From the IMG/VR virus record IMGVR_UViG_3300046516_001459, positions 1 to 42,388 of that record: 42,388 nucleotides of DNA. The stretch is one strand, 5' to 3'. A program made the position numbers and the translations under genes. The notes under the pieces were generated by a model. That model was not told the origin of the DNA and did not search any database. It was given only the letters and a program-made list of their open reading frames with translations. The first letter of the stretch is position 1, and every line of letters begins with the position of its first letter. Shown here one piece after another: positions 31-40,588 of the stretch. This stretch comes from a virus.

Positions 31-446
31 TGCCGCGCCACATTCGCTCGAATCCTGCGCGCGATGAGAACCAGCCGCCGTCGGCGAGTGACTGCCTCGC
101 GCACCGCTGCGACGAACACCGCGAGATGAAGCCGGTGGACGATTCCGCAGACGACGGCGCGGAATGCGGCATCTGCGTCGCGGCGAAGTTCGTCCTCGCG
201 CACGAGGAAGCCGCCGAAAAGGAAATCCTCGATCGGCTGTTCTGGCCGATGGTGGAGACGGCGCGCGATCGGTTAAATCTGCTCGCGCTGGGCGCCGGCG
301 CGAGCTTCGAAGAACAGGCGCGCGTGCACGTCGTAGAATTCTCGAAAATCTTTGGCGCTCCGTCACCGGCTATACCGCCGGCCGAGACGCCCACGGAGGA
401 GAGCGATGGCAACCGGACAACTGACCCGCCTCGACGACCGCAGTAA
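30..446 (+). CDS. Unknown early protein directly upstream of recT
   Basis: This 138-residue protein starts on a TAATG overlap with the junction gene and runs 41 bases into recT. An alternative ATG lies at 126, but neither has a strong ribosome binding site, so coupling favours 30. The middle part contains a CGIC pair and a helical stretch rich in Ala, Glu and Leu; the C-terminus is rich in Pro and Thr and probably disordered. In many phages the gene before recT encodes the partner exonuclease (RecE, YqaJ or lambda-Exo type). This product is too short and shows no PD-(D/E)XK motif, so I do not call it that. It could be a RecT accessory protein; this is only positional inference. Confidence 0.7.
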   Translation: MPRHIRSNPARDENQPPSASDCLAHRCDEHREMKPVDDSADDGAECGICVAAKFVLAHEEAAEKEILDRLFWPMVETARDRLNLLALGAGASFEEQARVHVVEFSKIFGAPSPAIPPAETPTEESDGNRTTDPPRRPQ

Positions 447-1341
447 CGTCGTCAGTCAACTTTTCAAAATCAACAAGCCGCATATCCTCGCGGCGGCGCC
501 GAAGACGACCGGCGATCCGCTCCGCCTGCTGAACGTCGCGTTCAACGCGATTGCCTTCAATCCCGATCTGCTCGCCTGCACACAAGAGTCGCTGATGGCC
601 GGCGTGTTCGAAGCGCTGAAGCTGGGCATCGCGCTGGGCGGCCCGATGCAGGAAGGGTGGCTGATTCCCTTCAAGGAACACGGGACGCCGAAAGCGACGC
701 TGATCGTCGGCTATCAGGGCTACCGGAACATCATCGACCGCGCCGGCAGCGTCACCGATATGCACCCACGCGCCGTCCACAACGGCCGCGTGAAGGCCGG
801 CAACGACTGGCGCGAGGGGACGCCGGACGAATTCGACTACTGGTACGGGGACCAGCCGCGCATCATCCACAAGCCGCGGAACGCGATGCCGGAGAAGCGC
901 GAACAGCTCCGGTGCGTGTACTGCGTCGCGAACCTGCGGCGCGGCGGAAAGCAACTCGAGGTGATGGAACTCGCCGAGGTTGAACAGCATCGGGCGCGCA
1001 GCCGGGCGCGGGAGTCGGGCCCCTGGGTGACGGACTTCGTGCCGATGGCGCTGAAGACCGTCCTTCGGAAGATTTCAAAGTACCTCCCGAAGTCGAACGA
1101 ACTGCTCGCGCGAGCGCTCGACCTCGACGACCGGGCCGACCGCGGGGTCGACCAGTTGCTCGAGACGCCGGCCGGCGTGACCTATATCGACGCGCCAGAC
1201 GCCCCGCAGAAGCCACCGGCCGCATCCCCCGTGGATCGGCTCAAGGAACTCCACGGCGCTCCACACGGCCCCACCACGGCCGCGGAACCGCCTGCCCAGC
1301 CGCTCGTCGAACCGCCGGCTGAGGGCGACATCAAGTGGTGA
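406..1341 (+). CDS. recT: RecT-family single-strand annealing protein
   Basis: RecT proteins bind single-stranded DNA and anneal complementary strands during phage recombination and replication-fork repair. The 311-residue product has the family signature: NPDLL followed by SLMAGVFEALKLGI near residues 52-75, then GWLIPFK and LIVGYQGYRNIIDRAG, and a later WVTDFVPMALKTVLRK segment. Length and order fit the family. The C-terminus is a Pro/Ala-rich tail. The start is at 406 because GGAGGA lies at 396-401, although the frame stays open upstream. No companion exonuclease gene is visible beside it. It overlaps the preceding gene by 41 bases and is followed by a RyR-domain gene, inside an early replication and recombination operon. 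Confidence 0.92.
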   Translation: MATGQLTRLDDRSNVVSQLFKINKPHILAAAPKTTGDPLRLLNVAFNAIAFNPDLLACTQESLMAGVFEALKLGIALGGPMQEGWLIPFKEHGTPKATLIVGYQGYRNIIDRAGSVTDMHPRAVHNGRVKAGNDWREGTPDEFDYWYGDQPRIIHKPRNAMPEKREQLRCVYCVANLRRGGKQLEVMELAEVEQHRARSRARESGPWVTDFVPMALKTVLRKISKYLPKSNELLARALDLDDRADRGVDQLLETPAGVTYIDAPDAPQKPPAASPVDRLKELHGAPHGPTTAAEPPAQPLVEPPAEGDIKW

Positions 1342-1746: not shown

Positions 1747-2679
1747 ATGAACGCCACGATCGTCATCGACACGCTCTGGACTGGAACGACTGCGCGGGAG
1801 CTTCGGCTAAGTTCGGCTCTAACGAAGTTGGTGTTTGTGTACCTCTTCACGGGGCCGGATCGAAACCCGTACGGACTCTATCGTCTCGAGGTCGATGCGA
1901 TGTTGCTCAGACTGCATGAGCGGGAAGCCGACGTCCGGCGCTCGCTCGAGCAGCTCCAGGCCGTGGGGTTCTGCTGGTGGGATGAGGCCACGGGCTGGGT
2001 ATGGGTGCGCGAGATGGCGCGCTTCCAGTTTGCCCTGCCGCTGCGCGTGGCCGACTATCGCTGTCACTCGGCGAAGAAGTGGTACCGCTCACTTCCGCCG
2101 AACCCATTTCTTGGCCTGTGGTTTGATCGGTACGCGAAGGACTTCCACCTTGCGACCGAGCCGCACGCGGTGGAGCGCCGCGCGGGACCGGACCCCGAAG
2201 CCCCTTCCAAGGGGCTGGTACAGCCCCTGTTACAGCCCCTTATTGTACGTACGGGATCTTTTGCTCTTGATCTGTCTTCTCAGGAGGTACAAGAACCCGT
2301 ACAAGGGCAATTAGTACCGCCGGATCGGACGACGGTTCCGCTGCGCGGCGCCGCGCTCGAGGAGGCGTTCGCGCGGTTGTGGGCGCTGTACTCGCCGCTG
2401 AACGGCAACGAGAAAAAAGCGGCGCGCGAGTACTTCGAGAAGCTGAAGCCGACGCCGGCGTTGCTCGCGACCATCGACGCGAACGTCCGCGGGCGCGCGC
2501 AATCCGTCGAGTGGACGAAGGAGGGCGGCCAGTTCGTGCCGCGGCTCGTGAACTACCTGAAGCAGCATCGGTGGGAAGACGACGTCGACGTCAGCCCGCG
2601 GCCGGTTGTCAGCGAGCGCACCGCGCGCACGGTGGCGGCCGCCGAAGCGTTCGTCGATAAACATCGGGAGCGCGGATGA
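1747..2679 (+). CDS. Lambda-O-like replication initiator with internal iterons
   Basis: The 310-residue product has a predicted winged-helix region (about residues 15-110, with a KLVFVYLFTGPDRNPYGLY segment) and a C-terminal module, LWALYSPLNGNEKKAAREYF through GGQFVPRLVNYLKQHRWED, that recurs in O-type phage replication initiators and primosomal proteins. By analogy it would bind the origin and pass the host DnaB helicase to its loader, here probably the next gene. Between the domains lies a linker whose DNA carries four copies of an AGCCCCT iteron followed by an AT-richer stretch, the same arrangement as lambda ori inside gene O. The start at 1747 fits the domain boundary; its binding site is weak. 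The stop overlaps the next ATG (ATGA). Confidence 0.82.
   Translation: MNATIVIDTLWTGTTARELRLSSALTKLVFVYLFTGPDRNPYGLYRLEVDAMLLRLHEREADVRRSLEQLQAVGFCWWDEATGWVWVREMARFQFALPLRVADYRCHSAKKWYRSLPPNPFLGLWFDRYAKDFHLATEPHAVERRAGPDPEAPSKGLVQPLLQPLIVRTGSFALDLSSQEVQEPVQGQLVPPDRTTVPLRGAALEEAFARLWALYSPLNGNEKKAAREYFEKLKPTPALLATIDANVRGRAQSVEWTKEGGQFVPRLVNYLKQHRWEDDVDVSPRPVVSERTARTVAAAEAFVDKHRERG
2199..2252 (+). repeat. Iteron cluster inside the initiator gene (candidate replication origin)
   Basis: Four copies of AGCCCCT lie at 2199-2205, 2210-2216 (inverted), 2222-2228 and 2234-2240. The first two form the palindrome AGCCCCTTCCAAGGGGCT, and the last two repeat at a 12-base period. A GTACGTAC palindrome follows at 2245-2252, then an AT-richer stretch to about 2310. 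The 18-base palindrome and the string CTGGTACAGCCCCT both recur exactly in the intergenic hub near 39409-39433. Lambda, whose origin iterons lie within gene O next to an AT-rich region, is the precedent. The origin function is inferred. Confidence 0.65.
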
Positions 2680-3179
2680 CCGGCAGCGCCCACGACATCG
2701 CCGCGCTGAAGCGGTTCGCCAGGACGACGGTCACGTTGGGCGCGTCGCTCCGCGCGGACCACATCGACACGCCGATGATCGAGATGTACTGGCGCGCGCT
2801 GAAGGACGTCCCTATCGAGTTACTCGAGGAGGCCGCGGTGGAACTCGCGGCGACGGCGAAGTTTTTTCCCAAGCCGGCGGAGTGGCGGCAGGCCGTCGAC
2901 GAACTCCTCGACCGGCGCGAGCGGCTGCGCGAGATTGCCGGCCCGAACGGACAGCCGCTCCTGCCAGGAGAAATCGGGGAGTACCACTGCGAGGACTGCG
3001 ATAACAGTGGGTGGGTCACCGAAGTGAAGGTCTGCGAGGGGAATTGCGGGTCGCACCTTGTCGCGAAGGCCGGCCACACGCACGCGTTCGCGTCCCCGTG
3101 CACGAACAAATTCTGTCTCGCGGCGCGGCAGCAGAAGACACAGCGGAAGCGCCGCTACGCGAAAACCAGAGGAGAGTAG
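2676..3179 (+). CDS. Putative helicase loader with zinc-type cysteine cluster
   Basis: The 167-residue product starts with a helical domain whose pattern IEMYWRALKDVPIELLEEA, then FFPKPAEWRQAV, resembles small phage helicase loaders and G39P-like proteins. The second half has paired cysteines: CEDC with a following Gly-Trp, CEGNC and CTNKFC (about residues 104-146), which probably bind zinc. The C-terminus is very basic. Such genes usually follow an O- or DnaD-like initiator, as here, and deliver replicative helicase to the origin. The start overlaps the initiator stop as ATGA. The loader assignment rests on pattern and context, not on a catalytic motif. Confidence 0.6.
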   Translation: MTGSAHDIAALKRFARTTVTLGASLRADHIDTPMIEMYWRALKDVPIELLEEAAVELAATAKFFPKPAEWRQAVDELLDRRERLREIAGPNGQPLLPGEIGEYHCEDCDNSGWVTEVKVCEGNCGSHLVAKAGHTHAFASPCTNKFCLAARQQKTQRKRRYAKTRGE

Positions 3180-3182: not shown

Positions 3183-3641
3183 ATGATCCGAATCAGGAAG
3201 AGTCAGACCGCGGATACGCGGACGTGCGATTTCACAAAGGTGGATCGTTCGACGCTGCTCGCGAGTTCAATCCAGCACGTCGCCGACGTCCACCAAGCGC
3301 TCGCGTTTTTCGCTGGGGAGATCGTCTGCGCCGCCGGCCGCCACGATTTCGACAAGCTGTCGGACATCGACGGGTTCCATCACGACTTCACGACTGGGTT
3401 CACGGTCACCGACTGGTGGGATCGGCATCGGCAGTTGAACCGGCATCATCTCCAGCAGGCCGACGGCGTGCGCGAGGACGTGAACCTGATCGACGTGCTG
3501 GACTTCATCGCCGACTGCGTCATGGCCGGCATGGGGCGCACTGGCAGCGTCTATCCGTTGAACCTCTCGCCGGAGTTGCTCGAGAAGGCGTTCCAGAACA
3601 CGGTCGCGCTCCTGAAGGCGCAGGTCGAGGTCATTGGGTAA
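3183..3641 (+). CDS. HD-like DUF5662-type protein
   Basis: This 152-residue product is rich in the His and Asp residues of an HD-type helical fold. Visible are HVADVHQAL, the RHDFDKLS segment, WWDRHRQLNRHHLQ and NLIDVLDFIADCVMAG. The His-Asp pair, the paired downstream His residues and the DVLDFIADC helix match what I know of the DUF5662 family in phages, which is suspected to be a metal-dependent phosphohydrolase. No substrate is established. It starts just after the loader gene, preceded by the AGAGGAGAG box at 3169-3177, and is expressed with the early replication genes. A nucleotide-pool or signal-nucleotide hydrolase role is a guess. Confidence 0.6.
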   Translation: MIRIRKSQTADTRTCDFTKVDRSTLLASSIQHVADVHQALAFFAGEIVCAAGRHDFDKLSDIDGFHHDFTTGFTVTDWWDRHRQLNRHHLQQADGVREDVNLIDVLDFIADCVMAGMGRTGSVYPLNLSPELLEKAFQNTVALLKAQVEVIG

Positions 3642-3884: not shown

Positions 3885-4126
3885 TTCGTACCGCATATCT
3901 CTGTCGCAACGGGATCTGCGAGGCGGCCGTTCCGCTCGAATGGTTGTCGCCGCGGATCGAGATCGTCCACCCGACGTTCCCGCCGGTCGCGCACCTCTAT
4001 CGACTCGCCTTTATGGATCTTGAATGCCGCGAGTGCATCTACGAGTGGTACAGCGCGAGCGTCGTTCCGGCGCCGCTCCCGGCGGACTTCAACAGCCTTC
4101 GGCGGTTTTTCGAGGGCCTCTCGTGA
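3881..4126 (+). CDS. Small unknown protein with two cysteine pairs
   Basis: Eighty-one residues. Cysteines occur as CRNGIC near the N-terminus and CREC in the middle, with HPTF and HLY histidines between them, so a single zinc site is possible. The text reads like a small phage protein that presents a metal-held loop. The ATG overlaps the previous stop, and the stop overlaps the next GTG. No homologous family is recognised. Confidence 0.6.
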   Translation: MIRTAYLCRNGICEAAVPLEWLSPRIEIVHPTFPPVAHLYRLAFMDLECRECIYEWYSASVVPAPLPADFNSLRRFFEGLS

Positions 4127-4596
4127 GGTTCCGTCCGCAGGTGGCGGCCGGCTCGAGGCGGAGCGCCAAGCGCTACATCGTCACCGCGCGGCTCGAGATT
4201 CTCGACCACGCGCTCGCGAAGAAGCTGGGCGCGGAAGGCACGTACTTCCAGAGCGGGGCCGAGGCGAAGCGATGGGTCGCGCTGAATTTTCTCCAGCGCG
4301 CGGGACAGGTGCGCGGACTTCGCCGGCAGCACGAATGCGTGTTCTGGCTGCACGCTGTCGGGCCCGATGGCCTGAAGCGCCGCATCGGCAGGTACATCGC
4401 CGATCACTGCTACGACGAGAAGGTCGCGATCGGCCCGGACGATCCGCGCTTCGCGACTAACGGCCCGTTCGCGTGGGAACCCGTCGTCGAAGACGTGAAG
4501 CCGGCCGGCGGCGACCGCGAGGACGTCTACGTCTGGAAGAAGCGCCACGTCGAGGCGGAGTACGGAATCACGGTTCGGGAATTCACTGGCCGATGA
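4123..4596 (+). CDS. DUF1064-like putative endonuclease
   Basis: The 157-residue product follows the DUF1064 pattern: a basic N-terminus, then GTYFQSGAEAKRWVALNFL, where the family has FDSKxEARRY, then GQVRGLRRQHECVFWL and GRYIADHCYDEKV, matching the family's KYIADFVY strand. DUF1064 proteins are thought to be small PD-(D/E)XK or Holliday-junction-type nucleases of phages. Glu in SGAEAK, Asp in IADH and Lys in DEK are plausible metal-site residues. GTG at 4123 is chosen because it overlaps the previous stop (GTGA). With RecT nearby, a recombination or branch-resolution role is sensible, but activity is inferred. Confidence 0.7.
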   Translation: MRFRPQVAAGSRRSAKRYIVTARLEILDHALAKKLGAEGTYFQSGAEAKRWVALNFLQRAGQVRGLRRQHECVFWLHAVGPDGLKRRIGRYIADHCYDEKVAIGPDDPRFATNGPFAWEPVVEDVKPAGGDREDVYVWKKRHVEAEYGITVREFTGR

Positions 4597-4925
4597 GTGG
4601 AGGACCGATGACCGATCTCGGTGACGCGCTCCGCGCCCTCGTAGCGAAAATGCGTGACGGGCGATCTCGGCGGCGACGGCAGCCACGACTGAACGTTGGC
4701 GAGTTTGTTGGGGCGCGGAAAGTAGATGAGTGGGCTGATGAACTGGCCGCGATCCTCGCCACCTTGGTCGGGAGGGAAGAGGCATGCGGGGTGATTGGCA
4801 AACCAGATCCTGAAAAGGGTGAGAAAGTCTGCGAGCTTCCAAGGGGCCATGACGGCTATCACAAGAATGGGAACTGGCGCTGGCTTGGATACTGGGTCGA
4901 TCCCCCGCAGGAGACGACACGATGA
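4593..4925 (+). CDS. Unknown early protein (lower-GC segment)
   Basis: 110 residues from the ATG that overlaps the previous stop. A second ATG at 4608 follows a GGAGGA box closely and could be the real start (105 residues). The N-terminal half is helical and basic; the C-terminal half has VCELPRGHDGYHKNG and a Trp-rich end. Cys, His and Trp residues suggest a small metal or DNA binding fold, but no family is recognised. Base composition falls here and stays lower to 6000, unlike the neighbouring genes, which suggests a separate origin for this stretch. Confidence 0.6.
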   Translation: MSGGPMTDLGDALRALVAKMRDGRSRRRRQPRLNVGEFVGARKVDEWADELAAILATLVGREEACGVIGKPDPEKGEKVCELPRGHDGYHKNGNWRWLGYWVDPPQETTR

Positions 4926-5161
4926 GCCGAGACAAGATGACACCGCGTCAATCGTTGCGCGCGGCCATTGATCGGTGCTGTATCGCACGCGGGGAAGCAC
5001 AATGGCTGAACGGCTATCGTGCTGGCTCAGGGCGTGGCGAGGATGCTGAGTTGTACGCGAAAGAGTCTCGCCTCTGGAAATATACGGGTGATTGCGAGCG
5101 AGCGTTAGAGGGGTACATCTCTCGCTACGCCACAGCCGTGAGCCGCAGGAGACCCCGATGA
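4922..5161 (+). CDS. Small unknown basic protein
   Basis: Seventy-nine residues, starting on an ATGA overlap and ending on an overlap with the next ATG. It is helical and charged, with RDKMTPRQSLRAAIDRCC at the start and VSRRRPR at the end. No motif is recognised. Codons with A or T at the third position are more frequent than in the replication genes upstream. It contains an 11-base partial match (ATGCTGAGTTG, 5043-5053) to the intergenic 13-base motif described elsewhere, probably by chance. Confidence 0.55.
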   Translation: MSRDKMTPRQSLRAAIDRCCIARGEAQWLNGYRAGSGRGEDAELYAKESRLWKYTGDCERALEGYISRYATAVSRRRPR

Positions 5162-6000
5162 CGCACCCGCCGAAGGCCGAGACCAGCCTAGCGTTACGCC
5201 TCTTAGAAGAACGGCGCGCACAGCATCAAGCGAATCTTGATGGCTGGACTGAGCCGAACGGCTATCTGGTCCCGACCGAACCAGACGCAGACGAACGCGT
5301 GAAGATTCGCGCGCTTCTCGCAGGCGCCATCCACGAATTGTCGTATTTACTCTCGGCCGATCCCGCTCCCCCGGTGCCCGCGTCCGCAGGCGCGGCCCCG
5401 CTCAGGGCGTTCATTCTGGACCGCATCGCAGAGTTGGAAACCACGCATGGATCTGCTGCGTCTTGTGGGTGGCACGAAGGCTTGACGTATACGTATGACA
5501 TGGAAGCGGCGGCCGCTCTGAACGAATTGAAACGACTAGACGCCGCCCTCTCCGGCTCCGGCCCGTCCCTGCCCGCCCCATTCAAGGGGCACATCGATTC
5601 GGACTGTGAAGTCTATCGAGGCGTCGGGCACATTTGCACGTGTGAGACACCAGCCGAGAAAGCCGAGCGCGCGAAGGAACGAGCCGAATGCGAAGCGGAG
5701 CGAGATGCAGCGTCCATGCCCGCCCCGGCTGAACAGATTACGGCATTAACAAAAGAACTAGAAACGACGCGGAGCCACTCCATCCACTGGGAACGACGCG
5801 CAACAGAAGCCGAACAGCGCGTAGCTGAACAGCTTTTGTACGGCCCTCGCCTGCCCGCCCCGGCGTGGAGCTGGTGGTCGGCTCGTCGTATGGTGGTTGA
5901 TCGCAGCGAGGGATATGTCGTCACATATGTGCTCACCGCTTGTGACTTGAAACGGCTAGGACTTCCCTCACCCCCTGCGTCCCCTCCAGAGGCGCCGTAG
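5158..6000 (+). CDS. Unknown protein with coiled coil, last gene of the early operon
   Basis: 280 residues. The start is supported by a CAGGAGA box at 5147-5153 and an overlap with the previous stop. The N-terminal third is helical; a middle part has HIDSDCEVYRGVGHICTC, a possible metal-binding cluster; then comes a charged coiled-coil stretch (EKAERAKERAECEAERD and beyond) and a C-terminal WSWWSARRMVV domain. Three LPAP or MPAP repeats act as linkers. Codon use is clearly more AT-rich than in the rest of the operon, with several TTA and CTA codons, suggesting recent acquisition. Function unknown. It ends nine bases before the stop of the opposing endolysin gene. Confidence 0.6.
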   Translation: MTHPPKAETSLALRLLEERRAQHQANLDGWTEPNGYLVPTEPDADERVKIRALLAGAIHELSYLLSADPAPPVPASAGAAPLRAFILDRIAELETTHGSAASCGWHEGLTYTYDMEAAAALNELKRLDAALSGSGPSLPAPFKGHIDSDCEVYRGVGHICTCETPAEKAERAKERAECEAERDAASMPAPAEQITALTKELETTRSHSIHWERRATEAEQRVAEQLLYGPRLPAPAWSWWSARRMVVDRSEGYVVTYVLTACDLKRLGLPSPPASPPEAP

Positions 6001-6931: not shown

Positions 6932-9900
6932 TCATTGGGCCCCACTCAAGCGGTCACGAAACTGCCGCTCGAACTCCGCGCGGTCTGGCTTGGGGACCCG
7001 CTGGAGCAATTGTTCGTAGCGCCCGCGCGCCCGCATCCGGTAGAAGTCACGGAGTTGCGTCGGCGAGAGCCCCCGCGTCGCAGAAGCGGCGGCCTCCGGA
7101 TCGCCGCCCGCGAGCGCTCGTGCCAAGTCTTCACGTGACAGCCGCGTCGCAATCCCGCGGCGGCGCTGCGCGTCGGCGACAAAGCCGTACGCGTCATCGA
7201 GCGCCTGCTGTTCGTTGGTCCCGCGCGTCGAGTGCAGCCCGAGCAGCGACAGGAAGCCTTCCCACCCTAAATGCGGCGCCTTGGGGCCGCCGGTGGCTGT
7301 CTGCTGCGGATGTTCACCGAAGCCGTGCTGGCGGAAATCGCCCAGCTCTTTCGCGAGCTTCGCGGGGTAGCGGGCCGAGAGCATCGTGCCCCCGCGCCGC
7401 GGGTCGACATCCTCGAGCAGCGAGTGATCCGCGGTCCCGCGCGCGTGCTGGTACGCGTCCTTCGCCGTGTCGACGAATACCGAGCCGGCCGCCTGGAGAT
7501 GGGGGAAAAACAAATTCGTGAACGCGATGCCCGTTGCCGCGGCGAGCCCTGTCACGCCGAGCGCGAAGCCGAGTCCGCGCCGGCGCACGCCGGGATCGGG
7601 ATGTCGCGCGACGTCGCTCATGTACTGGCTCATCACACTTGGATACTTCGTCAGCATCCGCATCGGGCCGAGCTGCCGGATGACGGGGTTGTCGCCAATC
7701 TCCCCGTAGACGCCGTGCACCTGATTCGTGACGTCGCGGGCCCAGCCGGCGGCCGTCTCGCGGTCGCTCCCAGCCTCGCGCGCGACCTTGAGCGCGCCGA
7801 GAAACGTCGCCTGCCGATTCGCGCGGTGCGCGCGGTCGATCGGATTCGTGATGGCGCCGACAAAGGCTCGCAGGGTGCTATTCGAGATGCGCCGCTCGAG
7901 CGCGTTCGGCTTCGGCGTCATCGCGAGTTCTCTGTTCGCGAGCGCTTTGCCGGCCGGCGTCCGGGCCTCTTTGAGTCCGCTGAGCACGCCCTTCGCGCCG
8001 ATCTGCGGATAGGCGGCGAGCACCTGGGCGCGCGTGAGTACTGCGGTGTCGGCGGCCGCGGCGAACAGTTTCGTGTAGATCGCCGTCTCGATCGCGCGGA
8101 GCGTTTTCCGCACGGTCTTTGGACTGAGGGACGTCACGTCGGAGGCGGCGCGTTCGACCATCGTCGGCAGGCCACGGAGCTGTTCGGCGTAGAGCTGCGC
8201 GTACCGCGCGGTGTTGGGCTGCCCGGCGTCCTTCGCCTGCTTCGCGTAGTCGTCAACCGATGCGATGGCTTCTTTCTGCCAGATGTTCCGGGTGACGCGC
8301 TGCCAGAGCGCGGCATCTTTCACGCCGGGCGGCGGCGGATCGGTGAGCGCGCGCCGGGCCTCGAGGAGATCCGGCTCGATTGTCTTCCAGAGTTCCGGCA
8401 AGGCGTGGAACGGTTGCGAGAACTTCTCGAGCGTGTTGAGTTCGGGGAGCGCCGGTTTACCGGCCCGGATGGCTTGCGTCCCGATCTTCGCGCCGGGCTC
8501 CGTCGCCATCTCTTTAAGGCCCTTGAGCACTGCCGGTGCCCGTCGGGCGAGTTCCGCGAGTAGGGCGCCTTTGACCGCGCCGGCGAGCGGGTCCTTGTCG
8601 AGCACGGCGCCGACGAGCGCCGCGCCGGACGTCCCCATGACGTGCCAGAACAGCCGCGGGTTCTGCTCGTAGAGCTTCTGGAGGCCGCCCAGCCCGGACG
8701 CGAGGTACTCGCCGGTGCGCGCGTTTTTCTTGAGCGTGTCGTCTTTCGACGTGCCGCCACGGAATTCCCGCTCCGCCTGCCGGTCGGCCGCTTCGCCCAG
8801 CAGTTTGGTGTACGTGTCCAAATTGGCTGGCGTGGGGTTCTCGAGCAGCTTCGCCCGGCTCCGGGCATCCTCGGTCATCTTCGCCTTGGCGAGCGCGGCC
8901 TCGGACTGCGTGACGGGCGTCTCGCGCTTGGCCGGCGGCGGCTCGAGGGGCCCGCGGTCCACCCGCTTGAGTCCCTCCGGCGCAGATGTTTCACGTGGAA
9001 CGTTGACCTCACCGGCCGGCACCCGGGTTTTCGCGAGCGCCGTCCGACGGTCCTGAATCCCCAACATCGTCGCTAGTTCGTCCGCTGGGACGCGCGGAGA
9101 CGTCTCTCCGAGGTTTGGCCGTGGCGTCGGGTTGGACGGCGCCTGGGGCCGCTGGACGCGTTCCTGGGCTATTCCAGCCTGCACGCCTTCCGGGTGCATC
9201 CGGACGCGATTCCCAATTTCGAGCGCTTTGTCGACGCCCATCGCGTCGACCTCGTCCGGCGAGTAGCCGAGTTGCCGGGTGAGGAAGTCCTTGACGTTGG
9301 TCTTCAGGCCCTCTTTGGGCGGGTAGACGACCGCCTGGATGTCCTGGTCGCCGCGGGCCCACGCCGCCACGGCGCGGTGCGTGCCGCCGGCAAGGTACAT
9401 CTGCCCGTCGCGGCCCTGGACGACGTTCACGGTGTCGGCGTTGTGGCGACCAACCGAGCCCGGCGGGACGCGCGAGAGCTCCGACGGGCCCTCGTCGAGT
9501 TTCGCCAGCACGCCGGCCTTGTCGACCGCGTCCTGGGTCGCGACGAGCTTGTCGAGCGGGACGCGCTGGAGCGTCGGCTTCGACAGGTCCGCCTCGGTGT
9601 TCGCCTTGTCCATCGCGCCGCGCTCGGCGACCGGGAAGGGGACACCCGTGTCGCCGAAGTGGCTCTGCACGGCCGGGAGCTGAGCCAACCGGTCTTCTGG
9701 CGCCGGCGTCTCGGCCAGTCCCGGCTGCACCTCGCCGCGGTCGGCGGCCTGCCGCTCGAGCGCGAAGGGGGCCTCTTCCTGCGGGGTGGCGTGTTCGGAT
9801 TCGCGCACCTCACCCACGTCGCCCGGCAGGCGCGGCTGGGCCTCGCCCGTGTCGAGTAGGTCCTCGACCGGGTCCTTCGCTTCGGCCGGCGGTTCGAAGG

Positions 9901-22928: not shown

Positions 22929-23462
22929 TTAGATCGCGGCGGCGATGATCGCGAAGCCCGTCGGCGCGTCCGCGACCGCGGATTTCGTGTTGCCGTTGTT
23001 GGTGGTGTGCGAGCCGAGCGTCAGACCCGTGCCGAACGGCAGGCCGTCACCGAACAGCGCGCAGTACTCGCGATTGCCGAGCGACTGCGACGAGACGCCC
23101 TGGCCCTTCAACTTGAAGGCGATGTCCGGCGCCGCGGCCGCGGTCGTCGCGTTATCCGAGCCCTTCAGCCACGCGTCCACCGTCGACGCCGAGGGCTTTT
23201 TGAAGTACAGCCCGAGCAACGCGCACGCGACGTTGGCGATGACGAAATCGGCCGTGTCGAGGCCCGAGAACGCGACGAACTGGAGGTCCGGGTTGCCGAG
23301 GGTGTCGATGTGCGCGAAGAGCGCGCGCAGCGCTTCCTGCGCGCCCGCCGAGCGGCCTTCCCCGCGCGCCTTGCGACGCGCGGTATTGGCGTCGGTCAAC
23401 GTCAGTACCATGCTGGTGAGGACGACGAGCGCGGCGATCAGTGCGTGAACGACGAAGTGCAT
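22929..23462 (-). CDS. Virion protein with hydrophobic leader
   Basis: 177 residues. An AAGGAG box (23468-23473) marks the ATG. Residues 1-17 (MHFVVHALIAALVVLTS) form a hydrophobic leader ahead of Met18-VLTLTDANTARRKARGEG, a sequence that looks like a natural protein start. Downstream are ALRALFAHIDTLGNPDLQFV, DTADFVIANVACALLGLYF and a Gly/Asn-rich C-terminus ending in hydrophobic FAIIAAAI. It is placed between head and connector genes and is probably structural. No family recognised. The 90 bases after its stop (22839-22928) hold only GC-rich sequence with no convincing signal. Confidence 0.62.
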   Translation of the reverse strand: MHFVVHALIAALVVLTSMVLTLTDANTARRKARGEGRSAGAQEALRALFAHIDTLGNPDLQFVAFSGLDTADFVIANVACALLGLYFKKPSASTVDAWLKGSDNATTAAAAPDIAFKLKGQGVSSQSLGNREYCALFGDGLPFGTGLTLGSHTTNNGNTKSAVADAPTGFAIIAAAI

Positions 23463-30997: not shown

Positions 30998-33534
30998 TGC
31001 GTTTCGTGTCCTGACGGCGGCGCGGTGACGTCGGACACGTTACCACTTTCCTGGTTGCTGTTGTGCAACGCCCGTCCGGCCCCCACGCCATGCCCGTCCC
31101 GACCCACGGCGCGCCGATCGGCCGGTTGGCCGTTCCCATTGGGCGCGGGCCCGCGCATCGACGCCGGCGCCGGCGGCGCGCTCATCACCTGTTCGGTGCG
31201 ATCGAAGACTTCGCGCACCTGCGGATCGGCGAGGTCCTCCCCCTTGAACTGGTACTGTACCTTCACCGGCTGCGGCGGCTGCGTCTGCGCGAGGTGCTGT
31301 TGGTGCTGGGTGATCATGTTCGTGACAAACGGCATGATCGCGGGCTTCTGCGTCATCAGCGTTTGCATCGAGTCACCGTTCGCCCACTTGAGATGCTCCG
31401 CGAGGTGGACGTTCGAATCGTGCCACGCCTGGAGTTGCCCGGGCGGCGGCGCGTTCGGCTGCGGCGGCACCTGTCGCATCACGGGCTGTCCGGTCGTCGG
31501 GTCCGTAATCATCGCGCCGGTCGGGCCCTGCATCGGCGCTTGGGTCGGCGGGGCGAACTGCACGGTCGCGGCCCACTGCTCGAACGCTTCCTGCTCGCGG
31601 CGGGCGCCGGTGACCTGCGCGTCGAGGCCCGGATAGAGGTCGGTGCGGCCGAACACCTGAAGAATGCGGTAGCCCGTCTCCGGGTTCTTCGCGTCGATGA
31701 CGCCGAGGCCCTGGAGCTGTTGAATCGCGGCGCGCGTGCCGAGCGAGGTTTTCGGCATCTGCGATCCGTCTTCGACTTCGATCCGGATCGAGCCGTCGAG
31801 ACTCGCCTTCTGGAAGACCGATCGCTGCCACGCGCCGTTGGGCCCCATGATCGCGGTCGCGCGTTCGTCGGGCCCGAGTTGCCGCTCCATCTCGAGCGCG
31901 ATCTTGAACCAGTTGCGATAGGTCGCGCCGCGCGCCTCGAGCACCGTCCCGTAGCGCGACTGCGAGCGCTCGACGAGCAGTTGCATCGCGGAGAACGCTT
32001 CGACGCCGGCCGGCTTCGCGCCTTTCATGATGTCGTAGGTGCCGGCGAGCTGCTCGATGTCGGCGAGGATCATCTCGCGGATGCTGACGAGCGACGACGG
32101 GACCTGCTCGCCGGGAATGCGCTCCGGCTTCGCATTGCCGCCGGCGGCGATCGGGTTGTACTTCACGACGAGGCCGGGCTCGCCCGAAAACTTCGTGACC
32201 TCGCTCCCTTTCGGCTCGAGCCAGACGGGATTCGCGGTGCGCTGGACGATCAGTTGAATCAGGGAATCGATCTGATTGAGCTGATTCTGTTTTTCGATCA
32301 GCGACTCGAGCGGCGAGCGCGCCCAGCCGCGGCCGCCGAACTTCACATAGCCGGTGTGCAGCCACGTCCAGAGGAAGCGGCCGTCCGCGGTCTTGTAGGG
32401 GAGCGGTCCCGGCAGGCCCTCTTCCGGCAGCCGCAGCACCATGCCGGACGCGCCGTCGCCGCCGACCGTGTTCACCACGCGCAGCACGAGGCCCTGCGGG
32501 AAATCCTTGCTGGGCTTCTCCCACATTTCCGACTCGGTGACGCCTTCCTGCTCTGTCGGTTCGCCGGAGATGCTGCTGTTGGGGAGCGACGAGACTTCGT
32601 TGGTCGCGGCAAGCGATCGGAGGAGCTGCAAACTGCGTTCGCTCGCGACCGTCTCCCATTGAATCTTCGCCATCTGCTCTGGCGTGAGCCGCGACTCGTA
32701 GTATTCCTTCGTCCGCCACCGCCGGCGGATGATCACGTCGGAATCGTTCGGGTCCGAGAACGCGAGCGGGTAGGCGATTTCGAGCGGTGAGCACGCGTCG
32801 GTGCAGCCGTGGCCTTTCCGCAGCGTCTCGCCGACGGGCTGGCCGTTCTGATCGGTCGCTGGATTGAGAATCGGCGAGCCGCACGCCGGACACATATGCC
32901 CGGCTTTCTGGACGGCGACGGGCGACGACGTGACCTTGCACGCGGCGCATTGTTCGTAGGAGACAAACGCCGTCGCGGAATCGCCGGAGTAGTCCCACCA
33001 CACATGCAGGAACGTGTTGCCAAGCGCGCCGAGCCACCAGTCCGCTTCCCGCTGCACGCGCGACCACTGATGGTCGGTGCGCAGCGGCGCTTCGTACTTC
33101 GAGGCGGTTTCCGCGGCGGTGATGTCGCTGGGCGTCGCGCCTTCGGGGCGCACGGCGACGGCCAGTTCCACGCTCTGGAAGACGGAGAGAATCGTGTCGA
33201 GCGTCTCGAGGATTTTGTTCGTGACGGGCCGCGGAATCCACTTCTGCAACCGCTTGTCGACCCAATTCCCGACGGCGCGCTCGAAATAAATCCACTGCCG
33301 GCCGAGCAGGTACAGCAGCAGTCGCCACCACACACGTTCGAACGACACGCGGCGATCGGCGCACCGGCGCGCGTTTTTCTGGAAGCGCTCGAGCAGCTTC
33401 GCGTCGTCCTGGAGCGGATCTTTCGGCTCGTCTGGCGTCGCGTTGGGATCGAGCGCGCGCGAGACGGCGGCATCGAGCCCGGGCGGGTTCGGGCCGACAT
33501 CGGGCGGCGAGATGGCGTTGGTCACCCCGATCAT
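30994..33534 (-). CDS. Portal protein with inserted zinc ribbon
   Basis: 846 residues, within the size range of podovirus portals. Typical portal segments are RFQKNARRCADRRVSFERVW, KWIPRPVTNKILETLDTILS, GRGWARSPLESLIEKQNQLN and EQLAGTYDIMKGAKPAGVEA, followed by GATYRNWFKIALEMERQLG. Unusually, residues 196-218 hold CAAC and CPAC, with further Cys at 244 and 248, a zinc ribbon inserted into the wing region. The C-terminal 170 residues are Gln/Pro-rich and probably disordered. The portal forms the DNA entry ring and binds terminase. GAGGTAA precedes the ATG. It is followed by two large virion genes, an unusual order. Confidence 0.85.
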   Translation of the reverse strand: MIGVTNAISPPDVGPNPPGLDAAVSRALDPNATPDEPKDPLQDDAKLLERFQKNARRCADRRVSFERVWWRLLLYLLGRQWIYFERAVGNWVDKRLQKWIPRPVTNKILETLDTILSVFQSVELAVAVRPEGATPSDITAAETASKYEAPLRTDHQWSRVQREADWWLGALGNTFLHVWWDYSGDSATAFVSYEQCAACKVTSSPVAVQKAGHMCPACGSPILNPATDQNGQPVGETLRKGHGCTDACSPLEIAYPLAFSDPNDSDVIIRRRWRTKEYYESRLTPEQMAKIQWETVASERSLQLLRSLAATNEVSSLPNSSISGEPTEQEGVTESEMWEKPSKDFPQGLVLRVVNTVGGDGASGMVLRLPEEGLPGPLPYKTADGRFLWTWLHTGYVKFGGRGWARSPLESLIEKQNQLNQIDSLIQLIVQRTANPVWLEPKGSEVTKFSGEPGLVVKYNPIAAGGNAKPERIPGEQVPSSLVSIREMILADIEQLAGTYDIMKGAKPAGVEAFSAMQLLVERSQSRYGTVLEARGATYRNWFKIALEMERQLGPDERATAIMGPNGAWQRSVFQKASLDGSIRIEVEDGSQMPKTSLGTRAAIQQLQGLGVIDAKNPETGYRILQVFGRTDLYPGLDAQVTGARREQEAFEQWAATVQFAPPTQAPMQGPTGAMITDPTTGQPVMRQVPPQPNAPPPGQLQAWHDSNVHLAEHLKWANGDSMQTLMTQKPAIMPFVTNMITQHQQHLAQTQPPQPVKVQYQFKGEDLADPQVREVFDRTEQVMSAPPAPASMRGPAPNGNGQPADRRAVGRDGHGVGAGRALHNSNQESGNVSDVTAPPSGHETQ

Positions 33535-33538
33535 GGCG

Positions 33539-34036
33539 TTACCTCGTCACGAGGAGATGGCCCTCGTCATCGTGCGTGAGATGCGCGCGCCGCGCGGCGT
33601 CGTCGCCCATGTCCTCGAACGACAGTTCACCGCCCTCGCTCATCCCGCGATCGGGCGCGCCGGTCACGATGTCGCGCGCTTTCGCGAGCAGGTCGCCGAG
33701 CGCCGGCCGCGTGGGCGTGTAGCCGTCGTCGGCATTCGGGAGCGCGGCGCTCGCGGCCTCCGTGCGCGCAATTTCCGCCACGGGCACGAGGTAGCCGAGC
33801 TTCCGATAGAGTTCCGCGCGTTCGATTTTCAGTTCGTTGACGTGCACGCGCAGCCAATCGAAATTCGCGTTCGCGAGCGCGAGCTGGCGTGTCAGTTCAC
33901 TCGTGCGCGCGTGTTCGGCGGCGAGCTGACAGGCGAGGTCGGTCGTCTTCTCGACCGTCGCGACGAGCCGCTGTTCGTTTTGTCGGTGGATCACGCTGTT
34001 GATGATCATCACGACGGTGCGCGCGGAGAGGATCAT
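33539..34036 (-). CDS. Unknown coiled-coil protein before the portal
   Basis: 165 residues. A hydrophobic N-terminus (MILSARTVVMIINSVI) could be a membrane anchor or an amphipathic helix; then comes a long coiled coil (LTRQLALANANFDWLRVHVN, ELKIERAELYRKLGYL) and an acidic tail. The start overlaps the previous stop (ATGA), and its end supplies the binding site for the portal start. Scaffold-like or chaperone roles are possible. No family recognised. Confidence 0.6.
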   Translation of the reverse strand: MILSARTVVMIINSVIHRQNEQRLVATVEKTTDLACQLAAEHARTSELTRQLALANANFDWLRVHVNELKIERAELYRKLGYLVPVAEIARTEAASAALPNADDGYTPTRPALGDLLAKARDIVTGAPDRGMSEGGELSFEDMGDDAARRAHLTHDDEGHLLVTR

Positions 34037-34434
34037 TTGCGGAGGTCCTTCGCGTACTGCTGCCAGCGGGCCGCGGTGTTAGGGCCCTCATCGGGCAGGG
34101 TGACGTCTTTCGGGGTGATCCCGCGTGCGCGTTGGGCGAGCGCGCGTGTCGGAAAGTACTGCTCCGGCGGCTCCATCGCGTCCATGAACTGGGCGTGCGA
34201 TTCGCCGGGGAGCGGATAGGCGCCGATCGCCGACGTCAGCAAGTGTGCGCCGCGCAGGAGATTGCTGCCCCCGTCGTCGGTGGGAATCGGCGTCGCGCGC
34301 AGGCGCGCCATTTCGTCGGCGCCTTCTGGCGTCGGCGGCGGGGCGAGCGGGAGGCCGGCGCGGTTCAGCAGCGCGAGCAGGGCCGCCGGCACCTGCCGGA
34401 TCGCGCGCGTCGAGGGATAGCTATCTTGTGGCAC
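34033..34434 (-). CDS. Unknown late protein
   Basis: 133 residues, GTG start overlapping the previous gene by 14 bases. Pro-rich and helical (VPAALLALLNRAGLPLAPPP), with GAHLLTSAIGAYPLPGESHA and a C-terminal TAARWQQYAKDLRK helix. Its position between terminase and portal suggests a packaging or head protein. No motif is recognised. Confidence 0.58.
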   Translation of the reverse strand: MPQDSYPSTRAIRQVPAALLALLNRAGLPLAPPPTPEGADEMARLRATPIPTDDGGSNLLRGAHLLTSAIGAYPLPGESHAQFMDAMEPPEQYFPTRALAQRARGITPKDVTLPDEGPNTAARWQQYAKDLRK

Positions 34435-34753
34435 GGTGCACCGCTTTCTCGATCGCGGCCTGCTCTGCGATCACCGCGCGCATGTGATCGCGCGTCCGTC
34501 GCAGCGCGCGGAGTTTCGCGCCGCGCGTGGGTCCGAGGGGCACGAGAATGATCGCGGGAAAGGCGCCGCCCACAATTTCGGCGACGCGCAGATGCACGCC
34601 CTTGAACGGCAGCAGTTCGCCGCGGCGGAAGTCCCGAAAGACGTCGGGGACCGGCTGCGCCCGCTGCGCCTTCAGGTCATCGTTGGCGAGGGTCCACCGG
34701 CGCACGGCGAGTTGCAGCGCGCGGATCGGATGCGCGAACACGTTCAGCCTCAC
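34421..34753 (-). CDS. Unknown basic late protein next to terminase
   Basis: 110 residues starting with GTG that overlaps the terminase stop (GTGA). Strongly basic at both ends (HPIRALQLAVRRWTLAND and RALRRTRDHMRAVIAEQ), with a central hydrophobic strand pair (GAFPAIILVPLGPT). The charge suggests nucleic acid contact. There is no recognised family. Confidence 0.58.
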   Translation of the reverse strand: MRLNVFAHPIRALQLAVRRWTLANDDLKAQRAQPVPDVFRDFRRGELLPFKGVHLRVAEIVGGAFPAIILVPLGPTRGAKLRALRRTRDHMRAVIAEQAAIEKAVHRATR

Positions 34754-36279
34754 AGCCAGAAATCTCCTGCGGAAACGTCCTCCAGCATACCCGGCGGGTC
34801 AAGTTCGGTCGCGAAAAAGGGAATCTCCTCCGGCGCGCGCGGGCGATGTTCACGCCGGCGCATCTCCTCGATTTCGTAGCGCGTGAGCTCGTCGAAGTCT
34901 GAGAGATCGCGCTTGCCTCCCGAGGGCGATGGGTCGGGCGTCTCGAGCGTCGGGCCGCCCATCAGCAGGTAGCGCGTCGCGTCGGGCAGATCGTCTTTCC
35001 GCTTGAAGACTTTTTCTTTGCGCGTCTGCCCGTCGGGGCTCGTGTTCTCGGCCCAGCGATAGTTGCGGTGTTGGTCGACGCACTGCGGCACGCCGAGGCG
35101 CGGGTCCGCTTCGGGGAGGAGGAACCAGAGCTGCTTCTGCGCGAGCCAGGACTGCACGCGGCGAATGCCGTCTTCGACCTGATTCGGCGCCGGCGTGAGG
35201 TAAATGCCGTAACGCGGCTGCGCGAGTTCGATCATGAACTGCCGCTGCGATTTGTCGCAGCACCAGCGCGAGGGATCGAAGGGCCGGGACGGATTCCAGC
35301 GCGCGCACATTTGCTCGAGGCCGAAGACGTGCTCGTGAATCGGCTTGAAGTTCGACAAGTACTCGCCGACGAGCACGAGGCCGCGCGGGCCCATGACGCC
35401 GAGCACCGCGGCGAAGGGATGATCGCCGCCCGGATCGACGCCCACATACGCCGTGCGCGACGGGTCGATGTGCGGCCACTCCGGCAGCACGCGCTTGATC
35501 TGCTCGTCGGTGCGGACGATTTGCGAATCGAGCAGGGCGCCGTAGATCGCGCCCTCGAACGTCACGAAGTCCGCTTCGAATTCCTGTTGATAGAACAGCG
35601 GGTCCATCGACGCTTTCGCGTCGGCGAGTTCGGCTTGGCCCTCCGGCGTCTGGTAGAGCGGATTGTCCGCGGTTTTGTATTTCACCGCGAAGTACCCGGG
35701 CCGGCCCTGGAGCGCGGGGAGCCAGAAGGTTTCGTAGCACCAATCGAAGCCGTTGGGCGACGTGGTGAAAAACGCTTGGCCGCGCTTGTCGGTCAGCGCC
35801 GGCAGCATCGTGTTCCACGCGAGCTGCTGCACCTTGCGCGTCTCGTCGATCCACGCCCAATCGAGCCCGGGGCCGCGCGCCTTTTCCGGATCGTCGAGCG
35901 AGCGGAACATCGCCTGCGCGTAGTTCTTCAGTTCGAGCGTGTAGTGCTGTTCGGACCAATCCCCGATCCACGCGTGCGGAATCGTTTTGAACACCTGCGG
36001 GATGACGAAGTCGTGGAGGTCGGGATAGGTCGGGGCGCAGATCCAGCCGAGCGAGGGATTCGAGCGATCCGACGGCAACGTCGACATCCGATCGCCGACG
36101 GCGACGCCGCCGATGACGGTCTTGCCACCGCGCCGGCCGGCAATCGCCGTGACGCGATGGAACGCGTGCCGGCCGCCGGGCGTGCGCTGGCGAATCGCGG
36201 AGAGAAACGCCTGCTGATGCGGGTTGTAGCCGAGCGAGAGAATCCCGGTCGGGTTTCCGCGGACTTCTTTACCGGCCAT
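34750..36279 (-). CDS. terL: Terminase large subunit
   Basis: 509 residues, the ATPase-nuclease motor that packages DNA through the portal. Walker A is AGRRGGKT (47-54), Walker B LDWAWIDE with Asp145 and Glu146, and the coupling motif is FTTSPNG (171-177). The nuclease domain starts with VGVDPGGD (Asp282) and has Glu307 in VGEYLS, and the KRKDDLPDATRYL segment (Asp433) near 427-437 as the last acidic site. Domain order and length are standard. The ATG overlaps the end of the DUF3008 gene by 11 bases. By eye the packaging class (headful or cohesive end) cannot be decided. Confidence 0.93.
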   Translation of the reverse strand: MAGKEVRGNPTGILSLGYNPHQQAFLSAIRQRTPGGRHAFHRVTAIAGRRGGKTVIGGVAVGDRMSTLPSDRSNPSLGWICAPTYPDLHDFVIPQVFKTIPHAWIGDWSEQHYTLELKNYAQAMFRSLDDPEKARGPGLDWAWIDETRKVQQLAWNTMLPALTDKRGQAFFTTSPNGFDWCYETFWLPALQGRPGYFAVKYKTADNPLYQTPEGQAELADAKASMDPLFYQQEFEADFVTFEGAIYGALLDSQIVRTDEQIKRVLPEWPHIDPSRTAYVGVDPGGDHPFAAVLGVMGPRGLVLVGEYLSNFKPIHEHVFGLEQMCARWNPSRPFDPSRWCCDKSQRQFMIELAQPRYGIYLTPAPNQVEDGIRRVQSWLAQKQLWFLLPEADPRLGVPQCVDQHRNYRWAENTSPDGQTRKEKVFKRKDDLPDATRYLLMGGPTLETPDPSPSGGKRDLSDFDELTRYEIEEMRRREHRPRAPEEIPFFATELDPPGMLEDVSAGDFWL

Positions 36280-36469
36280 AGGCCCGGCGCTTCAGGGCAT
36301 CCGAGGCGCGCGGGGCACGCGCGGGGAGGCCCCTCTCCGGGGTGGCCGCGAAGTCGTGGAGTTGCTGATGCGACATCGTGAGCAGGCCGCGGTTCTTCGC
36401 GTCGAGTTCGTCGGGATGGTGCTCCGCAATCGCGATGGCCCGGCGCTGCGCAATCGAGGTGGCCGGCAT
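36269..36469 (-). CDS. DUF3008-type small protein
   Basis: Sixty-six residues. The N-terminal PATSIAQRRAIAIAEHHPDE and the later LLTMSHQQLHDFAATPERGL match the DUF3008 pattern, a small helical protein often found next to phage terminase genes. Function is not known. The ATG lies directly after the TAG of the small terminase, and the end overlaps the large terminase start, so all three are expected to be made together. Confidence 0.75.
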   Translation of the reverse strand: MPATSIAQRRAIAIAEHHPDELDAKNRGLLTMSHQQLHDFAATPERGLPARAPRASDALKRRAYGR

Positions 36470-37090
36470 CTACGTGTCCGTTCGCGCGACGCCGACGACG
36501 TTCGCGTCGAGCGGGGCGCTCTCGGTCTGGCCGGGACCGAAGACGACATTGACCTGGAGCGCGGGCATCGACGCGCCGGCCGCGCCCTCGTTTTTCGAGT
36601 GCGAGTAGTTACGGAAGTGGCCGAGCCCCTCGAGCGTTTTCACCGCGACGTCGACGCCCTTCTCGGATTTCTTGTTGAGAATCGCGCCGTTCACCCGATC
36701 GATCGCGTTGGCGGCGACGTCGTGCTCGAGGATGTCGCGAAGGTCGTTGAGGCGATTCGCCCGGCGCGCGCGGATGAGGATCATCTTCACCGCGTTCTCC
36801 GAGATGTTGAGCACCCGGCCGATCTGCCGGCGCGTCATGCCGGAGGTTTTCATAATCAGCACGGCCTGTCCACGCGCCCGGCGGCGCACCGCGCCCTCTT
36901 TGTGCCCGAGTTCGTCCTTGAGGAGCTTGACGGCGGTCGGGACGGTGACGTGTTTGACCTTCCCGTTGCTCCCGACGACCACGTCTTCGACAAATTCGAG
37001 GTCCGCCGGGCAGAGGACGTCTCCGAGGTCGGGTTCGGGGAGCGCGAGGGGGGCGCCCTCGATGGTGTCGACGACGTCAGACTTCGCCAC
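36470..37090 (-). CDS. terS: Terminase small subunit
   Basis: 206 residues. A helix-turn-helix is visible at GMTRRQIGRVLNISENAVKM, followed by a basic helix and a long helical oligomerisation region (RLNDLRDILEHDVAANAIDR). The preceding KVKHVTVPTAVKLLKDELGH and QAVLIMKTS complete the domain. Small terminases recognise the packaging site and regulate the motor. Position two genes before the large subunit supports the call. The start is the first ATG 34 bases downstream of a 13-bp repeated motif. Confidence 0.72.
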   Translation of the reverse strand: MAKSDVVDTIEGAPLALPEPDLGDVLCPADLEFVEDVVVGSNGKVKHVTVPTAVKLLKDELGHKEGAVRRRARGQAVLIMKTSGMTRRQIGRVLNISENAVKMILIRARRANRLNDLRDILEHDVAANAIDRVNGAILNKKSEKGVDVAVKTLEGLGHFRNYSHSKNEGAAGASMPALQVNVVFGPGQTESAPLDANVVGVARTDT

Positions 37091-37123
37091 GCTGCGGAGT
37101 GTCGCCCTAGTCAGGGTCGGCGG

Positions 37124-37136
37124 GCAATGCTGAGTT
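37124..37136 (-). promoter_or_regulatory. 13-bp repeated intergenic motif, copy 2
   Basis: GCAATGCTGAGTT, exact match to the copies at 27240 and 39234; with the third copy it shares two more bases (CA). It overlaps the stop of the 63-residue Cys-rich gene and lies about 34 bases upstream of the small terminase start, in a 45-base gap. Confidence 0.5.
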
Positions 37137-37327
37137 CAGATCCCGTCCTGGCACTCGAGCTCACAGCGGGGGCAGCAGTGGCAGCGGAAGTCGATGTCGT
37201 CGTTGATTTCGATTTGGTAGGGGCAGGGGTGCGCCGCGTCGGTGGGGGGATTGGCGAGGTTGCGCGACATCGTCGAGCAGAGTTGCCCCGGACACCACGC
37301 GCGCGGCGGGGCGGGCTCGTCGTTCAT
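37136..37327 (-). CDS. Small Cys-rich (zinc-type) protein
   Basis: Sixty-three residues with eight cysteines, in order CPGQLC, CPY, CHCC, CELEC. Such density points to metal binding, probably one or two zinc ions. The ATG overlaps the previous stop (ATGA); an open frame continues upstream without support. No family recognised. It is the last gene before the terminase block. Confidence 0.6.
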   Translation of the reverse strand: MNDEPAPPRAWCPGQLCSTMSRNLANPPTDAAHPCPYQIEINDDIDFRCHCCPRCELECQDGI

Positions 37328-37527
37328 ATGGCGCCGCCGCCGGGCACGTCCGCACCGACGTCGGGCACCTCCGCCGTCGTCACGCGGCCGAACGTCATCA
37401 CGCGCGTGTAGAACCACGCGGCCCGATTCGGATGCGCGTCGCCGACGGCGCGCAGGTAGGTGCGAAAAAACCAGAACGTCTTCGGCAGCCGGAGCACGCG
37501 ATAGGCGAGCGACCGCCGCTTAGGCAT
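37324..37527 (-). CDS. Small basic late protein
   Basis: Sixty-seven residues from ATG at 37527, which overlaps the previous stop; a GTG two codons earlier is the alternative. PKRRSLAYRVLRLPKTFWFF and RTYLRAVGDAHPNRAAWFYT are basic and aromatic, the remainder is Gly/Val-rich. It could be a small membrane-peripheral protein. Function unknown. Confidence 0.58.
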   Translation of the reverse strand: MPKRRSLAYRVLRLPKTFWFFRTYLRAVGDAHPNRAAWFYTRVMTFGRVTTAEVPDVGADVPGGGAI

Positions 37528-37819: not shown

Positions 37820-37865
37820 GCGGCGCACGGTATCAGTTTTCTAAAGTGCTAGCAAGGGGGCTGGC

Positions 37866-38039: not shown

Positions 38040-38041
38040 CG

Positions 38042-38281: not shown

Positions 38282-38295
38282 CGTGCGTCTCCTCG

Positions 38296-39202: not shown

Positions 39203-39233
39203 GGCCGGACTCTACCGCCGCCCTCCACCCGAC

Positions 39234-39246
39234 GCAATGCTGAGTT
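39234..39246 (-). promoter_or_regulatory. 13-bp repeated intergenic motif, copy 3
   Basis: GCAATGCTGAGTT, exact third copy, 32 bases ahead of the first late gene. On the minus strand TTGCGT, 17 bases and TAGAGT follow from within the motif, a possible promoter that would give a nearly leaderless transcript; the other two copies do not share that -10. Confidence 0.5.
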
Positions 39247-39327
39247 CACACCGCCCCGCGTCAAAAATTTGGCAGCCGGGAATCGCCTAAAGAGGAACGC
39301 GTGCGCGCGCTGTAGTAGTACTTCCCT

Positions 39328-39355
39328 ACTCTAGAGCTCTTGTAACCCCCAACAA
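39328..39355 (-). promoter_or_regulatory. Leftward promoter candidate for the late operon
   Basis: On the minus strand TTGTTG (39350-39355), 16 bases and TAGAGT (39328-39333) make a fair sigma70-like promoter. Transcription would start near 39321 and enter the 59-residue gene. Weak match; listed because a leftward start must exist here. Confidence 0.35.
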
Positions 39356-39390
39356 CAAGCCTAGCTAGAGCGGCCGGAAAAACCCTCTAT

Positions 39391-39512
39391 AAGGGGCTGT
39401 CATAGCCCCTGGTACAGCCCCTTCCAAGGGGCTTCCAAATCCACCAACCCTCCCAGTGCGACAGGCCATGCGCGAACACCAAGCCCCTGTCACAGCCCCT
39501 TCGAAGCCCCTT
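39391..39512 (+). repeat. Iteron cluster in the control region (candidate origin)
   Basis: Seven AGCCCCT units: 39392-39398 (inverted), 39404-39410, 39416-39422, 39427-39433 (inverted), 39482-39488, 39494-39500 and 39505-39511. Direct neighbours are 11 or 12 bases apart. The palindrome AGCCCCTTCCAAGGGGCT at 39416-39433 is identical to that in the initiator gene (2199-2216). An AT-richer stretch follows on the right. Most likely the binding array of the phage initiator or of a regulator that also binds inside the initiator gene. Confidence 0.65.
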
Positions 39513-39624
39513 CACGAACACAATCGAATCAACATCTTACAGACGAGACTATCCACTCAAGTCATATACCTCAAATGCGACACCCACCGCCGCCTCCACA
39601 TACCCCCCTCGGACATCTATATCG

Positions 39625-40586: not shown

Positions 40587-40588
40587 AC

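Follow-up and report, generated by a model that had tools for sequence, protein, structure and literature searches.

Why should the same short repeat lie both inside the gene for a phage replication initiator and in a distant, divergent intergenic hub? This question is raised by the 42,388-base record of a soil phage (IMGVR_UViG_3300046516_001459, analysed over its whole length and referred to here as the window), in which the word AGCCCCT is clustered in an O-like initiator gene and again in the hub (Table 1). A two-strand scan bore out an earlier note that had counted four half-sites in the gene and seven in the hub, and within each array every spacing proved to be 11 or 12 bases, which that note had given for most sites (11, 12 and 12 in the gene; 12, 12 and 11 in hub array I; 12 and 11 in hub array II); hub array II begins 55 bases after the start of the final site in hub array I. 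Two longer matches reported between gene and hub are likewise exact, namely the string CTGGTACAGCCCCT (2215-2228 and 39409-39422) and the 18-base AGCCCCTTCCAAGGGGCT (2199-2216 and 39416-39433), although to call the latter a palindrome is slightly generous: its two arms form a perfect 7+7 inverted repeat, but the four bases between them are not palindromic. In total the word occurs 12 times on the two strands of the window, a number never reached in 100 dinucleotide shuffles (mean 2.92), and when all 7-mers were scanned without a preset motif, it alone formed two arrays. The remark that the motif is found nowhere else therefore holds for arrays but not for a lone site at 36624, and the many further arrays that had been named as the outcome speaking against a shared module did not appear when the whole window was scanned.

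Table 1. Positions of the arrays, their AT-rich flanks and the genes discussed here, in window coordinates.
Feature	Position	Strand	Details
RecT-type annealing protein	352..1341	+	Pfam RecT 4.5e-28; phrog_148 2.2e-44; upstream of initiator gene
O-like replication initiator gene, 310 aa	1747..2679	+	N-terminal winged-helix-like domain (predicted), disordered linker, helical C-terminal region
Gene array, four half-sites	2199..2240	+	2199+, 2210-, 2222+, 2234+; codes for the linker; at the position of the relatives' cluster B
AT-rich stretch at and right of gene array	2219..2340		100 bases from 2219 rank third; candidate unwinding element
Holliday-junction-resolvase-like protein	4024..4596	+	phrog_190 6.4e-9
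Terminase large subunit	34750..36279	-	phrog_2 4.2e-38; anchor for locating related hubs
Stray AGCCCCT, outside any array	36624..36630	+	
Late-strand ORF (at least 60 aa) closest to hub array	38715-39188		
AT-rich stretch reaching into hub array I from its left	39311..39410		100 bases from 39311 rank fourth
Hub array I, four half-sites	39392..39433		39392-, 39404+, 39416+, 39427-; in three near-identical contigs
Hub array II, three half-sites	39482..39511	+	39482+, 39494+, 39505+
AT-rich stretch at hub array II and to its right	39488..39611		100 bases from 39488 rank second
Weak regulator-like gene	41216-41830		phrog_30599, 1.2e-5

The record is not closed and holds only part of the phage. A near-identical contig, L031, matches positions 32309-42388 of the window, continues through 5,184 bases that are absent from it (L031:10081-15264) and then matches positions 1-1272, at an identity of at least 99.9%. 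Because L031 links the end of the window to its start, the joined map puts about 10.4 kb between the gene array and the hub, which lies upstream of it. The missing stretch of about 5.2 kb carries a gene for a RecE-like exonuclease (L031:13556-14548), which together with the RecT and resolvase-like proteins makes up a recombination set comparable to that of the Bacillus phage SPP1. The hub is also carried by two more near-identical contigs, and the gene array is visible in the window's own record alone. The structural genes that could be identified lie on the minus strand to the left of the hub, while RecT and the initiator are encoded on the plus strand; no Rfam match was found in the window.

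The AT-richer DNA that the earlier note had described to the right of both arrays stands out at the scale of the window. Of its ten most AT-rich 100-base places, those that begin at 39488, 2219 and 39311 hold ranks 2, 3 and 4, and the first-ranked place, at 26025, is unrelated to the arrays. From 2241 the AT content is 49%, against a mean of 33%. An AT-rich tract thus adjoins the repeats of the gene array, as in lambda-type origins, and AT-rich elements accompany the gene and hub arrays alike, as in the SPP1 type. Words resembling DnaA boxes are not enriched in the window. A further word, TACGTACG, occurs once in the window, at 2246, directly to the right of the gene array; its presence near two other hubs was dropped as a signal, the word showing no enrichment in the window.

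The product of the initiator gene was modelled by AlphaFold as an ordered N-terminal block (pLDDT 92-98 for residues 11-140) followed by a disordered stretch (34-43 for residues 151-190), and the array encodes this disordered linker, so that the repeats lie between the N- and C-terminal parts of the protein, as expected of a lambda-type origin. The high-confidence N-terminal model consists of helices and a two-strand wing and is predicted to be a winged helix; its structural matches are mostly winged-helix proteins, and are generic and modest (Foldseek E no better than 0.27, VIA Z at most 6.3). The N-terminal part matches phrog_25210, 12196 and 1701, and the C-terminal part 270, 9474 and 9327. 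No Pfam family was assigned to the initiator, sequence searches against solved structures returned nothing credible, and close-relative scans with the whole protein over viral and genome contigs gave no confirmed relative. The neighbouring product of 2676-3179 matched no recognisable family in Pfam, PHROG or solved-structure searches beyond weak PHROGs of unknown function, and none of the six products scanned for a DnaB-type helicase or loader family (2676-3179, 3183-3641, 4024-4596, 4473-4925, 4922-5161 and 5092-6000) yielded one.

In comparisons with relatives, the word was found to follow the N-terminal domain of the initiator across phages whose surrounding genes differ. Six annotated phage relatives were opened, and AGCCCCT was present in the initiator gene of all five that possess this domain, in either orientation and at equivalent places, while IME307, which has the C-terminal part alone in common, showed no cluster. 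Because the orientation of the motif flips between homologues at the same place, the constraint acts on the DNA and not on the encoded peptide. A larger set of 136 loci, drawn from the six-member alignment and consisting of the best 80 of 402 confirmed viral loci together with 56 genome loci, contained at least one AGCCCCT inside the initiator gene in 120 cases and at least two in 117. These sites fall mostly at offsets of about 185/196 and about 429-463 from the gene start, in pairs 11 bp apart; the window's gene is without the first of these clusters and is spaced mostly at 12 bp. For 50 less redundant relatives we counted 172 occurrences, whereas 209 permutations of the same composition averaged 6.8 and reached 26 at most, and the density of the word was 3.76 per kb in the gene versus 0.08 per kb outside it, a difference of about 45-fold. 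Among the 16 genes without the word are those of nine loci (L093-L096, L099, L102, L106, L111 and L130, of which one is in Stenotrophomonas acidaminiphila), each 305 residues long; these loci retain the initiator domain, and their origin word may have changed. In three Acinetobacter-type loci (L083, L128 and L088) a further half-site pair precedes the start codon of the initiator by 23-38 bases, possibly as an autoregulatory site.

From these patterns we infer that the N-terminal domain is the binder of AGCCCCT. The word might instead be read by another protein of phage or host, the initiator gene simply carrying the sites, an explanation with which the predicted nature of initiator binding and the presence of a regulator-like gene to the right of the hub would be compatible; it is nevertheless improbable in our view, given how closely the word follows the N-terminal domain despite changes in the genes around it and how strongly it is concentrated within the gene.

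Hub arrays were also sought in relatives of the window's terminase, at 80 loci found with a terminase alignment. Apart from the near-identical contigs of the window itself, three diverged relatives, whose terminases are 45-52% identical to that of the window, carry AGCCCCT arrays with 11-bp spacing 2.1-2.7 kb upstream of the terminase: four sites in L239, two exact sites and a variant in L301, and four direct sites in L329. When 210 7-mers of the same composition were compared over 78 sources, triples of AGCCCCT were found in three, triples of one other word in one, and triples of the rest in none. Among 43 terminase-relative records searched whole, many of them fragments, 40 had no AGCCCCT pair (39 without any match to the paired pattern and one whose match was not the word). 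G107, the 36-kb contig of L301, encodes an initiator that over 306 residues shares about 35% identity with that of the window; this gene has a RecT gene (49%) nearby and an array of its own (6966-6995), and a hub array (23376-23404) lies 16.4 kb away. G107 represents a second case, after the window, of the SPP1-type arrangement, with the same repeats within the initiator gene and far from it between genes. The 16-mer CATCACCATCACCATC occurs only twice in this contig, once directly after each array, although it is simple-repeat-like and a single case. In the window, neighbouring half-sites are 12 bp apart in five of eight pairs, with both arrays contributing, compared with 4 of 196 pairs in relatives (the other 192 being at 11 bp), and the 12-bp spacers have the form G-K-Y-A-Y in both arrays. 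In both genomes where the two arrays are visible, they are thus alike beyond the core word, by virtue of the 12-bp spacers in one and the duplicated 16-mer in the other.

These comparisons bear on the suggestion that the hub array is a chance occurrence or a non-functional duplicate of part of the gene array. The exactness of the shared 18-mer and 14-mer would suit such an origin, but the hub has seven sites to the gene's four, in another order and in two clusters, hub arrays recur in differently arranged form in three diverged relatives, and composition-matched words behave otherwise, which together make this explanation very unlikely. Since the motif tracks the N-terminal domain and a genome's two arrays are alike, the premise of the earlier note that one initiator serves both arrays is well supported by comparison, whereas for its choice between two origins and autoregulation sequence gives no more than a leaning towards the former.

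G117, which has the only other window-like initiator gene among the terminase relatives (28% identical) and also a hub region, carries neither array; its GC-rich repeats were examined and not used as evidence. Inspection by eye of 44 more viral records and of 49 genomes from the wider family showed no second array of the hub kind, and the AGCCCCT pairs there fall within initiator genes or shortly before them; some lone pairs on other contigs of the genomes (e.g. G061 C252, G062 C35 and G104 C4) were left out. The flanks of the L329 hub and of the G107 gene array showed no notable AT-richness. Two hub regions have the word TACGTACGTACT in common (L239:1151-1162 and L038:2999-3010), and extra palindromes in G046 and L159 were not counted because a run of A precedes them, which led us to read them as terminator hairpins.

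We favour, with modest confidence, the reading in which the gene array forms a lambda-type origin, the hub serving the same initiator as a second origin or a fork barrier, on the grounds of the AT-rich DNA at both arrays, the fork-stalling model for SPP1 and the recombination genes. The O-like protein would bind the AGCCCCT half-sites through its predicted N-terminal winged-helix domain; the four in-gene sites and the AT-rich DNA that follows them would constitute an intragenic origin; and the seven hub sites would provide the protein with a second nucleoprotein site, between leftward late genes and rightward early genes. There, the complex could act as a second origin, as a fork barrier that, in the way proposed for SPP1 oriR, helps replication change from the circle-to-circle to the concatemer mode, or as both. 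Weighing against this reading are the 40 terminase-relative records and G117 that lack the arrays, the by-eye inspection of the wider family that showed no second array, the flanks of the L329 hub and the G107 gene array with their ordinary AT content, and the six scanned products among which no DnaB-type helicase was found. Both the identity of the binding protein and every functional step in this scheme are ones that we infer.

A serious rival, which we consider less probable though far from negligible, is that the hub array is an operator at which the initiator regulates late (or early) transcription, leaving the gene array as the sole origin. The hub does lie between oppositely oriented gene sets, its array in the window is nearer the late side, arrays occupy the corresponding region ahead of the terminase in L239, L301 and L329, which makes four lineages with hub arrays upstream of late genes, and the half-site pair preceding the initiator start codon in L083, L128 and L088 occupies a natural autoregulatory place. 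On the other hand, a scan covering the sigma-70 type alone found no such promoter in 39150-40250, and an operator pure and simple would require neither the AT-rich DNA next to the two arrays nor the non-iteron 16-mer present at both G107 arrays. The AT-rich neighbours and this duplicated 16-mer lead us to lean towards two origin modules, and the origin or barrier role and the operator role at the hub could both be true.

The word also occurs outside these phages. A triple-site scan of viral contigs gave at least 119 stretches, and among the matches listed 77 clusters were near genes of the window's initiator family and 49 were not. About twenty of 28 translated loci outside the family look like initiators by eye, and six of ten scanned matched PHROG families named for replication. 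Arrays with 11-bp spacing occur in distantly related initiator-like genes (L183, L184, L218, L231, L256, L270 and L296), a 49.8-kb viral contig has eleven sites mostly 12 bases apart (L188:1884-2046), and the sites at L253:1398-1586 stand beside two exact copies of TTATCCACA, which we take to be DnaA-box-like. Several 12-bp-spaced arrays in viral contigs were set aside, since by eye they look like four-codon repeats in coding sequence. In the open-access literature we did not find AGCCCCT described as a phage iteron, although it may have been described elsewhere; the passages that contain the word concern a terminator (PMC6316719), ribosome-binding-site rows (PMC3952083), terminators (PMC2248197) and a CRISPR spacer (PMC9723563). 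Our search of that literature added no further two-origin phages. We put forward only tentatively, and regard as rather doubtful in its entirety, the broader proposal that AGCCCCT is an old and nearly unchanged origin word of widespread, mostly unnamed phage initiators, which the lineage of the window uses twice, the hub array coupling the concatemer switch to the switch from early to late expression. If the reading that we favour is right, the two-origin plan best known from SPP1 would also be found in a distant-looking phage lineage, and a seven-base word would mark the origin of many uncharacterised phages, whose origins could then be located straight from sequence.

Among the closest known systems, SPP1 offers a parallel in overall plan. 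Its oriL and oriR, served by the initiator gp38, both have AT-rich DNA (PMC6316719), and the initiator, once bound to oriR, is believed to bring the fork to a halt and, with recombination proteins, to trigger concatemer synthesis (PMC3485210). Like the window, SPP1 has one array in the initiator gene and one that is intergenic, with AT-rich DNA at both (PMC6316719, PMC3485210), and both lineages encode a RecT-like annealing protein, an exonuclease and a resolvase. On the circular map the arrays are about 12-13 kb apart in SPP1 compared with about 10.4 kb in the window phage. As far as these accounts extend, SPP1 differs in that oriR lies inside the late region, whereas the second array of the window is in a divergent hub; in that initiator binding has been shown for SPP1 and is predicted from sequence for the window; and in that no DnaB-type helicase or loader, expected next to the initiator in an SPP1-type system, was found among the six window proteins scanned. 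The origins of lambda and Stx phages, with iterons mid-way in the O gene beside an AT-rich tract (PMC7466680), resemble the window in having repeats in the middle of the initiator gene and an AT-rich tract adjoining; in the passages used from that source they are described as in-gene arrays, while the window has a hub array too, and another word and spacing. The initiators of PHROG 25210, 12196 and 1701 share with the window a homologous N-terminal domain and AGCCCCT within the gene (120 of 136, these being the best 80 of 402 viral loci and 56 genome loci), but whereas these relatives mostly have clusters at about 185/196 and about 429-463 with 11-bp spacing, the window is without the first cluster, is spaced mostly at 12 bp and possesses arrays at the hub.
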